Assembly: GCF_000934725.1 (NCBI RefSeq)
Contig: NZ_JYNS01000004.1
Coordinates: 1-64,000, forward strand
Direction of reading: 5' to 3'
Length of the DNA: 64,000 bases
From: Methyloterricola oryzae
GTDB taxonomy: Bacteria; Pseudomonadota; Gammaproteobacteria; Methylococcales; Methylococcaceae
Part shown: positions 51,572-54,933 of the stretch, one piece after another
How the letters are laid out: each line of letters starts with the position of its first letter
Numbering within the stretch: the first letter of the stretch is position 1
Translations under genes and position numbers: made by a program
Notes under the pieces: model-generated
The model's database searches: none
The model's input: only the letters and a program-made list of their open reading frames with translations
What the model was told of the DNA's origin: nothing

Positions 51572-51714
51572 GGCTGATCTCCTGGAATGGCGATGGCTTG
51601 CGGAGGAAATGTCCTGGATCTGCTCCCTTGGACCGCGGCAAGTCCTGCGACGTTGCATGGCGGGCCGGGCGGTTTGACAATACGCTCGCCTTCCATCTTG
51701 CCTGGAGTTGCCCC

Positions 51715-52698
51715 ATGGTGAAAGCCATTCTGCTGGAATCCCCGGAAGGCGTGTTCCGGGCCCGACTGGCCGAACTCGACGAATCCGCTTTTGCCGGTCG
51801 CGAGGTGTTGGTGGATGTCAGCTATTCCACCCTCAACTACAAGGACGCGCTGGCGATTTCCCGTGGCGCGCCGGTGGTGAGGCGCTTTCCCATGGTGCCC
51901 GGCATCGATCTGGCAGGAACAGTCCGCGAAAGCGCCGATCCGGCCTGGAAGCCCGGCGATGCGGTCTTCGTCAACGGTTACGGGCTGGGCGAGAGCCACT
52001 GGGGCGGCCTTGCGCAGCGAGCGTGTGTGGAAGGCAGGCACCTGCAGCGGCTGCCGGGGGCGTTCACGCCGCGTCAAGCCATGGCCATAGGCACCGCGGG
52101 CTTCACGGCCATGCTCTGCATCATGGCGCTGGAGCGCCACGGCATCACGCCTGAGCGCGGCGAGGTGCTGGTGACGGGCGCCAGCGGCGGCGTCGGCAGC
52201 TACGCCGTGGCCCTGCTGGCAACGCGCGGCTACCGGGTGACCGCCAGCAGCGGGCGGCCGGCGGAATGGTCCCGCCTCAAGGCGCTGGGCGCCGCCGAAA
52301 TCATGGACCGGCAGGAACTGAGCGCGGCCTCCAGACCGCTGCAGCGCGAGCGCTGGGCCGCGGCGATAGACACCGTGGGCAGCCACACCCTCGCGAACGT
52401 CTGCGCCGGGCTGCATCCGCGCGGCGTGGTGGCCGCCTGCGGGATGGCGCAGGGCCTGGATTTTCCGGGCTCCATGGCTCCGTTCATCCTGCGCGGCATC
52501 ACCCTGGCGGGGATCGACAGTGCCCAAGCGCCCATGGCCGAGCGCGAATCCGCCTGGGGCCAACTCGCAAGCGTCCTGCCCGCAGCCTTGGCCGATGGTC
52601 TGACCTGGGAAATCGGCCTAAAGGACGTGATCCAATGCGCCCATGACCTGCTCGACGGCACCCTCAGCGGGCGGATCGTCGTGAATGTGAATGCCTGA
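51715..52698 (+). CDS. acuI: AcuI/YhdH-type acrylyl-CoA reductase
   Basis: This 327-residue zinc-independent MDR-superfamily reductase matches the acrylyl-CoA reductase AcuI/YhdH family. It has the coenzyme-binding '[21 protein letters not shown]' near residue 150 and an NADPH-type specificity loop. The reaction in the cell may be detoxification of acrylyl-CoA or another enoyl compound. It is divergent from zwf, with 140 bases between the starts. Confidence 0.88.
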
Positions 52699-52708
52699 TC
52701 CAGCGGTT

Positions 52709-52838
52709 ATTTACCCGGCCCTTAGTGGCCGGGTAAATGCGGGGCACGTATGCCCCGGCGCGGCCACAGGCCGCGTCAGCCAAGGTCGGGCGCGACCGAC
52801 CTTGGCGTCGGCCCGAAATACCAGGAGGGTATTTTGGG
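52709..52838. repeat. Array of five consecutive hairpins
   Basis: Five adjacent inverted repeats fill the gap between convergent genes. H1: 12-bp perfect stem, 52709-52720 with 52727-52738. H2: 7 bp, 52740-52746 with 52751-52757. H3: 7 bp, 52759-52765 with 52769-52775. H4: 11 bp perfect, 52779-52789 with 52796-52806. H5: 7 bp AAATACC/GGTATTT (52816-52822, 52828-52834), extended by three more C-G pairs outward. The arms differ between hairpins, so this is not a simple tandem repeat. A few Ts follow H5, but none of the others has a T-run. Function unknown. Confidence 0.8.
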
Positions 52839-52844
52839 GCCTGT

Positions 52845-54248
52845 TCAATAAGCCAGCCCCGCTTCCACCGCGCGGGCCGGCAGGACGATATCCACGCACA
52901 AGCCGCCGCCCGGCCGGTTGCGCGCCCTGATGCTGCCGCCGTGCGCCTCCACCGCCCTTCGCGCGATGGCGAGCCCAAGGCCGAAGCCGCCCTGCCCTTC
53001 GCCGCTGCCCCGAAAAAAGGGCTCGAAGATGGAGCCCAGCATCTCCGGCGCGACTCCAGGCCCCTGATCGAGTACCGCCAGGTGAAAACGGCCGGCCCGC
53101 CTGTCCATACGGGCTTGAACGATCACGCAGCCGCTCTGCGGGGAATGTCTGACCGCGTTGCGCACCACGTTTTCCATGGCGCGGTGCAGCAACTCAGCCC
53201 GCCCACGCACCAGCACCGGCTCGAGCGAGGTGCATTCCAGGCGCACGGCCTTGGCCTGCGATTCAAACCGCGCATCCTCGACGATGTCCGCAATCAACTC
53301 CGCCAGGTCGATGTCGTCCTCCAGCGGGCCGTTCACGCCGGCCTGCAGGCGCGAAAGAGTCAGCAACTCGCCCACCAACTGATCCAGCCGCAGGGATTCG
53401 CGCTCGATCCGGGCGAGGGTCGAATCCAGCTTTTCCGGGTTTTGCCGGGCCAGTCCTATGGCCGCCTGCAAACGGGCCAGGGGCGAGCGCAATTCATGGG
53501 AGACATCGTGCAGCAGGCGCCGCTGGGCATCCATCAGGCTGGCGATCTGCCCGGCCATGTGATCGAACTCGCGGCCCAGATCGGCCAGTTCGTCCCGCCG
53601 CCGGCCCATGGATGGCGCCACGCGGGTCTGCATCTGCCCCTGCGCCACCGCCGCGAATGCCCGGCGCAGGCTGCGTATGGGCTTGGCCAGATACCAGGCG
53701 AGCCAGGCGCTGAACAAGAGGCTGGCAAGAATCCCGGAGGCGATCGGCAGCACCGGGGCGGGCTGAGCGGGGGCCGGACGATGCCGGGGCGGCGTGCGGA
53801 AACCTCCGGGTGGTGGCGACGACTCCCCCGGCGGCGGCTCGCGCCCTTGCATGAACAAGAGATAGCTGTGGCCATCGTCGGCCTGGACGTGCCGCACCTG
53901 GTCCGGGAACTGGCCTTCCTGGGCCAGCGCGCGGGCTCTTTCGAGCAGTTCATCGGGCACCGGCCGGCCGAGCAGATCGCGGCCCGTCTCGTCCACCGCA
54001 AACACTTCCAGGGCCGTCGACCTTTCCCAGTCCGAAAACAGCTCACGCAAGGCCGCGGTGCCGCCCCGGCGCAGCACCGCTTCCGTAACGCCGACCCAGC
54101 GGGCCGCTCGCCAGCGCAGGTCCACGCTGGCCGCGCTCTCCTGCTCCAGGGCCAGGTGACGCAGCCAGACCACCGTCCCAACGCCCGCCCCTGCCAGCAA
54201 AAGAGCCAGCCAGAAGGCGAGAAAAACCTTCCAGAACAAGCGCCCCAT
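52845..54248 (-). CDS. cpxA: CpxA-like sensor histidine kinase
   Basis: This 467-residue envelope-stress kinase has a membrane helix (about 8-28), a periplasmic domain that ends in a proline-rich linker, a second helix (about 165-185), a HAMP domain (about 185-240), a HisKA domain with the phospho-acceptor in HDVSHELRSPL, and an HATPase domain with 'ENVVRNAVRHSP', 'DQGPGV' and 'GFGLGLAIARR'. The start at 54248 is chosen as the ATG just before the first helix. It follows cpxR by 4 bases. Confidence 0.94.
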   Translation of the reverse strand: MGRLFWKVFLAFWLALLLAGAGVGTVVWLRHLALEQESAASVDLRWRAARWVGVTEAVLRRGGTAALRELFSDWERSTALEVFAVDETGRDLLGRPVPDELLERARALAQEGQFPDQVRHVQADDGHSYLLFMQGREPPPGESSPPPGGFRTPPRHRPAPAQPAPVLPIASGILASLLFSAWLAWYLAKPIRSLRRAFAAVAQGQMQTRVAPSMGRRRDELADLGREFDHMAGQIASLMDAQRRLLHDVSHELRSPLARLQAAIGLARQNPEKLDSTLARIERESLRLDQLVGELLTLSRLQAGVNGPLEDDIDLAELIADIVEDARFESQAKAVRLECTSLEPVLVRGRAELLHRAMENVVRNAVRHSPQSGCVIVQARMDRRAGRFHLAVLDQGPGVAPEMLGSIFEPFFRGSGEGQGGFGLGLAIARRAVEAHGGSIRARNRPGGGLCVDIVLPARAVEAGLAY

Positions 54249-54252
54249 GGCC

Positions 54253-54933
54253 TCAGTCCTTGACGAACAGATAGCCGCGGCCGCGCACGGTCTGTATGCA
54301 TGCGTCGCCGCCGGGCAAGGCGGCGAGCTTGTGGCGAATGCTGCTGAGGTGCACGTCGATGCTGCGGTCAAAGCGGGCCAGAGGTCTTCCCAGGGCAGCC
54401 TCCGACAGCTCGTTCTTGCTCACCACGCGCCCGGCATTGCGCACCAGAGCCTCCAGCAGGCTGTACTCGGTGCTGGTCAGATCCAGGGCCAGACCGCCCC
54501 AGCTTGCCTGCCGCTTCTGCGGCTGCATCTGCAGCGGCCCTTCGCTTAAGGTTTCGGGCGTGGCCAAGGTTGCCCCCTGGGTGCGGCGCAGGATGGCCCG
54601 GATGCGTGCCGTCAGTTCCCGCGGCGTGCAGGGCTTGGGCACGTAGTCATCGGCCCCCAGTTCCAGCCCGATGATGCGGTCCAGATCGTCGCCCTTGGCG
54701 GTGAGCATGAGCACCGGGACCCGGCTCTGCAGGCGGATGCGGCCCAGCACCTCGATGCCGTTCATACCCGGCATCATCACGTCCAGGACCACCAGGTCGT
54801 ACTGGCCGGTGAGCGCCTCGGCGACGCCACGCGCGCCTTCCAGGGCGATGCCCGTAGCGAAGCCTTCGCTGTGCAGGTACTCCGCCAGCATCTCGGCCAA
54901 TTCGGCATCGTCATCCACCAGCAATACTTTCAT
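54253..54933 (-). CDS. cpxR: CpxR-like response regulator
   Basis: This 226-residue OmpR-family regulator has a receiver domain with phospho-acceptor Asp51 (VVLDVMMPG) and conserved Lys100 (DYVPKP), then a winged-helix DNA-binding domain (about 130-225, ending 'TVRGRGYLFV'). With cpxA it senses envelope stress. The gene is divergent from cpxP, with a perfect Cpx box between them. Confidence 0.95.
   Translation of the reverse strand: MKVLLVDDDAELAEMLAEYLHSEGFATGIALEGARGVAEALTGQYDLVVLDVMMPGMNGIEVLGRIRLQSRVPVLMLTAKGDDLDRIIGLELGADDYVPKPCTPRELTARIRAILRRTQGATLATPETLSEGPLQMQPQKRQASWGGLALDLTSTEYSLLEALVRNAGRVVSKNELSEAALGRPLARFDRSIDVHLSSIRHKLAALPGGDACIQTVRGRGYLFVKD

Follow-up and report, generated by a model that had tools for sequence, protein, structure and literature searches.

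Five tandem hairpins between acuI and cpxA very probably form one copy of a non-autonomous IS630/Tc1-mariner-type MITE

Why is the gap between the convergent genes acuI and cpxA occupied by five unlike hairpins that follow one another? The first-pass annotation of the window (the whole 64,000-nucleotide stretch of DNA analyzed) had described this array and offered three explanations for it: a transcription-stop cluster, a REP/BIME-like mobile element or a structured RNA. All five hairpins are present where they had been placed (Table 1). RNA folding of positions 52700-52855 yields -98.2 kcal/mol compared with a mean of -65.1 +/- 4.4 for shuffled sequences, corresponding to a z-score of -7.55, and none of 200 shuffles folds as well. 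Hairpin 1 is composed of a terminal repeat at the left end of a mobile element and an internal inverted copy of the same repeat, so that the end to which the transposase presumably binds doubles as a stem.

The hairpins lie in a short dispersed element with defined ends. Searching the resident genome (G000, 4.9 Mb) with the hairpin stretch returned 20 near-full and about eight partial copies. Copies elsewhere, whose absence along with a lack of conservation had been named as refuting the observation, are consequently found at some 27 other places in this genome and, in addition, in eight relatives. When copies are aligned together with their flanks, they match from TATT through AATA and the sequence outside is unrelated, which identifies the element as an inserted unit and not as part of a duplicated region. 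Its ends, TATTAACCCGGCC...GGCCTGATTAATA, are imperfect inverted repeats, the right one having the family consensus TATTAATCAGGCC / TATTGATCAGGCC, and the pair TATTAACCCGGCC / TATTAATCAGGCC represents the terminal inverted repeats expected of a MITE. Dispersed copies are 143-149 bp long (141-149 bp for most copies other than that in the window), well within the short (<300 bp), multicopy and dispersed format of MITEs, and no reading frame of the element encodes a transposase. Three shortened copies, L030 (G000:C5:75724-75815), L031 (G000:C1:34706-34794) and L061 (in genome G013), retain both ends and have lost inner hairpins with different break points in each; these forms look like independent deletions. 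Overall, we are highly confident that the five hairpins constitute one copy of a non-autonomous IS630/Tc1-mariner-type MITE. The element is a previously undescribed family within a well-known class of genomic parasite and not a purpose-built terminator; no published description of it in methanotrophs was found in the open-access literature, ISfinder aside.

Table 1. Positions of the hairpins, the element and the adjoining genes in the window.
Feature	Position	Strand	Details
acuI, acrylyl-CoA reductase	51712-52698	+	NCBIfam NF051456, 488 bits (cut-off 440)
Element, very probably a MITE	52708-52850	+	143 bp including TA at each end; from 38 aligned copies of 7 genomes and sister-copy empty sites
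Left terminal inverted repeat, TATTTACCCGGCC	52708-52720	+	Family consensus TATTAACCCGGCC; first TA is the target copy
Hairpin 1, 12 bp, perfect	arms 52709-52720/52727-52738	+	94.5% of cells paired in 38 copies
Hairpin 2, 7 bp, perfect	arms 52740-52746/52751-52757	+	88.5% of cells paired in 38 copies
Hairpin 3, 7 bp, perfect	arms 52759-52765/52769-52775	+	88.3% of cells paired in 38 copies
Hairpin 4, 11 bp (14 positions, 93%)	arms 52779-52792/52793-52806	+	95.4% of cells paired in 38 copies
Hairpin 5, 11 bp, one mismatch (91%), loop AGGAG	arms 52812-52822/52828-52838	+	86.3% of cells paired in 38 copies
Right terminal inverted repeat, minus strand reads TATTGAACAGGCC	52838-52850	-	Last TA is the target copy
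CpxA-like sensor histidine kinase ORF	52845-54371	-	Best matches are CpxA models, below curated cut-offs; 54371 bounds the ORF and is not necessarily its true start
cpxA stop codon TGA	52845-52847	-	From the right terminal repeat of the element (..GCT TAT TGA)

Among the genomes searched, the element is confined to one bacterial family, where it shows both young and old copies. It is present in 9 of 38 genomes of the family, spanning 6 genera, and was found nowhere in the rest of the order (311 order genomes searched, ca. 270 of them outside the family). In a class-wide sample of 369 genomes it occurs in only two, both members of the same family as the resident genome. Plasmids and phages contain no copies, nor do IMG/VR viral contigs in an exact 25-mer search. 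Within-genome identity between copies reaches 97.5% in G003, 97.7% in G021 and 95.9% in G013. Copies of the resident genome share on average 86% identity among themselves and a mean of 75-84% with the copies of any other genome, and they look older than those of the three genomes above. These identities indicate a spread through recent bursts in some genomes (97-98% identity) alongside old copies in others. Counting end motifs in G021 gave 65 forward and 60 reverse occurrences, where a reversed pattern used as control had 2 and 0. The counts suggest that this genome carries about 60 copies. The resident genome also encodes three PmoA/AmoA-type proteins (G000:C18:70710-71423, C22:33-746 and C12:121014-121715), two with identical scores, and these genes (425 bits) mark it as that of a methane oxidizer.

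Other repeats were encountered in the same genomes. The resident genome contains a second, unrelated MITE-like element of 104 bp (L149, G000:C11:34392-34495) with ends TATTACTCCGGCC. Related ends are located at C47:2073, C48:2534 and C39:305, the one on C47 lying just before broken IS3-family transposase ORFs, and L149 may be a derivative of that IS3-family insertion sequence (IS). Two short elements of G013 (L165:365-477 and L164:1090-1235) possess IS630-type ends that together form a single long stem around a REP-like sequence (GGGAGCGGCCTTCAGGC..GGGCTAAAGCCCGC), apparently a REP carried inside an IS630-type MITE. In G021, a 32-base stretch in the far right flank of L051 (query bases 1474-1505) recurs exactly at more than 20 places and is probably another dispersed repeat of that genome.

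Insertion probably takes place at TA and duplicates it, as expected of an IS630-type MITE. Of 43 copies, 40 have T or C immediately on the 5' side of the element and 41 have A or G immediately on its 3' side, defining a YTAR target. To find empty sites, the joined flanks of copies were sought in congeneric genomes, and uninterrupted sites were identified for three loci (L047, L043 and L057). The L057 flanks match G041, where the empty site reads GAACTAAAC with a single TA (CTAA), compared with GACT[TA..element..TA]AACC in the filled site of G021. The L047 flanks form one continuous match of ca. 500 bases in G014, G041 and G042 with 79-85% identity across the join, and those of L043 have matches in G042, in G041 and at a different location of G021. 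Because at L047 the empty congeners show CA in place of the TA of the filled site, and the empty sites of L043 show a small gap at the insertion point, these two loci demonstrate absence of the element and not exact duplication; TA duplication therefore rests mainly on L057 and the YTAR statistics. Some copies depart from a clean duplication, since left ends in the resident genome are often CATT instead of TATT (5 of 18 aligned copies: L013, L015, L017, L018 and L024). In these five copies, the first base C pairs with the opposite G and lengthens the stem of hairpin 1, a pattern suggestive of template switching that corrected a quasi-palindrome.

The ends of the element point to IS630-family transposases as its mobilizing partner. 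Using the same end motif in pairs set further apart, we detected five pairs spaced 1,118 bp in G013 that correspond to five identical 1,116-bp ISs, TATTAACCCGGCC...GGCCGGGTTAATA. Both ends of this IS are TATTAACCCGGCC, identical over 13 nt to the consensus of the MITE left end. Its single 345 amino acid ORF encodes an IS630 family transposase (NCBIfam NF033545, 238 bits, cut-off 100) with a Pfam DDE_3 domain (140 bits) and a winged helix, the nearest named plasmid relative being IS1471 with 48% protein identity. A second, decayed IS630-family IS in G013 (51% protein identity) has unequal ends, TATTAGCCGGGCCCTTAAATA and TATTAACCAGGCCCCAAAATA. The former matches the MITE left end (TATTAACCCGGCCCTTAAATT) at 18 of 21 positions and the latter the right end (TATTAATCAGGCCCCAAAATA), with 22 of 25 positions matching the family consensus over a slightly longer stretch. 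The C-end/A-end asymmetry of the MITE is also seen in intact IS630 relatives from G043 and G044. Since the ends of the decayed IS match each MITE end separately and this asymmetry recurs, each of the two unlike ends of the MITE has its counterpart in one end of this IS group. IS630 copies of G014, G021 and G002 were also considered as partners and rejected, as they carry other ends (TAGAGCGTTTT.., TACTAACCGT.. and TATTGACCTTTG..).

Element and IS reside together in G013. A search for DDE_3 transposases in the resident genome (a draft assembly of 73 contigs) gave no match, and no partner IS was found in G008 or G014. Mobilization in trans is therefore argued from the similarity of the ends and not from co-residence. 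A partner transposase in the same genome is usual for MITEs, though not strictly required, and partners are often lost. The copies of the resident genome are probably stranded, their partner transposase gone, with a small doubt left by the draft assembly.

A mobile, repeated element is what the first-pass annotation had anticipated in part, and mobility and repetition are borne out while the kind it named, REP/BIME-like, is not: ends, YTAR/TA target and matching IS are those of an IS630 (Tc1/mariner-like DDE) MITE. A palindromic repeat moved by a RAYT (Y1 tyrosine) transposase would fit a dispersed, intergenic, palindromic element in high copy number, and the resident genome does contain one Y1_Tnp gene, on contig C47. 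The Y1 protein however scores as an IS200/IS605 transposase (145.7 bits, cut-off 55) and reaches just 36.4 against the RAYT model (cut-off 80), and no copy of the element was found on its 5.2-kb contig, so that the gene is not flanked by the repeat as a RAYT gene would be. REPs lack terminal inverted repeats and TA/YTAR sites, both of which are present in this 143-149 bp element, and its ends recur on ISs of the DDE type. The ends common to the element and IS630-family ISs largely refute mobilization by a RAYT, which we consider hardly credible. The nearby RAYT-type transposase that had been proposed as a check is likewise missing, the sole Y1-type gene being that of the IS200 protein.

At the locus itself, the element does fill the space between acuI and cpxA, as had been described, but it is longer than the hairpin array and overlaps the end of cpxA. 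The acuI stop codon lies 9 bp before the element. On the other side, the insertion provides the last codon (TAT) and the stop codon (TGA) of cpxA, placing the 3' end of the gene inside the element. Since the match to the kinase domain stops some ten residues short of this element-derived end, the insertion is probably harmless to cpxA. The convergent arrangement could indicate a bidirectional terminator cluster retained for the two genes, all the more as the stems are strong and, by crude gene calls, two further copies of the resident genome sit in convergent gaps like the window copy. Set against this, no intrinsic terminator, a GC-rich stem followed by a T tract, was found on either strand of 52600-52950, and the copies are dispersed between unrelated flanks. 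Of the copies in relatives placed by equally crude gene calls on both sides, 10 have divergent neighbors, 13 have tandem ones and none has convergent ones, which argues that convergent termination is not a property of the family. Retention as a terminator, the first of the original proposals, is very improbable in light of these observations; the MITE may nevertheless impede transcription as a side effect.

The hairpin stems are retained across genome-specific subfamilies, some with compensatory changes. Across the 38 copies, standard pairs fill 91.0% of the cells in the five hairpins, and double-sided changes are found at 9 pairs. The covariation score (0.086 versus 0.056) lies above all 500 shuffles and also above every slid control. 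The clearest compensatory changes are located in hairpin 4, where one pair is A-U or C-G in 24 and 9 copies and another is C-G or U-A in 20 and 15 copies, respectively. This conservation would be compatible with a selected structured RNA, either an sRNA or a cis-regulatory element, that became multicopy by chance. The copies are found at unrelated sites, though, and the subfamilies are specific to genomes. Because the compensatory cells track subfamilies, they represent few independent events, and templated correction of quasi-palindromes could explain the double changes as an alternative to selection. The best Rfam match, RsmW on the other strand, reaches 25.1 bits compared with a gathering score of 52. 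Of the suggestion that the array is a structured RNA, the retained and partly compensated stems survive while no known RNA family matches, and we regard a selected RNA in its own right as improbable. As the stems are retained, the hairpins are probably of importance to the MITE. More tentatively, and with the balance of our judgment against it, selection might be acting on the array as a functional part of the element, for example as a single-strand fold required when it transposes or replicates, or as an RNA insulator easing insertions; the array would then be a multi-hairpin cargo that compensatory change has preserved across genera instead of a passive remnant.

Taken together, the data are consistent with the following model. 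An IS630-type DDE transposase would bind the TATTAAYCMGGCC ends in trans, excise the element and insert it at a TA that becomes duplicated. The internal hairpins would be kept by helping the element, whether by letting single strands fold while it transposes or replicates, by protecting the inserted sequence or by insulating neighboring transcripts. The partner would have been lost from the resident genome, leaving its copies as decaying fossils, one of which, in the window, came to supply the end of cpxA. A striking intergenic structure is in this way explained as a mobile parasite with its probable engine named, and similar hairpin arrays in these methane-oxidizing bacteria need not be taken for regulators. 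The element, alongside the IS630 with the same ends, can serve as a natural system in which to study the retention of strong hairpins by bacterial MITEs and their persistence after the transposase is lost.

Among known systems, REP/BIME sequences with their RAYT are likewise multicopy intergenic palindromes, while the present element lacks a RAYT and differs in ends, target and size. The BOX elements of pneumococcus are multi-hairpin and MITE-like and vary in the number of boxB modules (PMC3049150). Forms lacking inner parts also occur here, but the five hairpins are unlike each other and the shorter forms look like independent deletions. Correia/NEMIS and ERIC elements are MITEs that lie between genes with TA on either side and whose transcripts fold (PMC2229807); they form long stem loops, in contrast to the present hairpins, each of which closes locally, and sequences and hosts differ. 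The 1.1-kb IS630-family ISs of G013, G043 and G044 share with the MITE the terminal 13 nt, the TA borders and, in several, the C-end/A-end asymmetry; unlike the MITE they carry a transposase gene, and no sequence beyond the ends is visibly common to both. By analogy, the best counterpart is RUP of Streptococcus pneumoniae, a short, non-coding element with about 100 intergenic copies, a TA target and ends resembling IS630-Spn1, for which mobilization in trans has been proposed (PMC2229807, PMC3049150). RUP is 107 bp long and AT-rich, and its ends pair mutually in one folded structure (PMC3049150), whereas the present element is 143-149 bp long, GC-rich and built of five separate consecutive hairpins, with no apparent sequence relation. 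What the two have in common are inverted ends like those of an IS630-family IS and insertion at TA.
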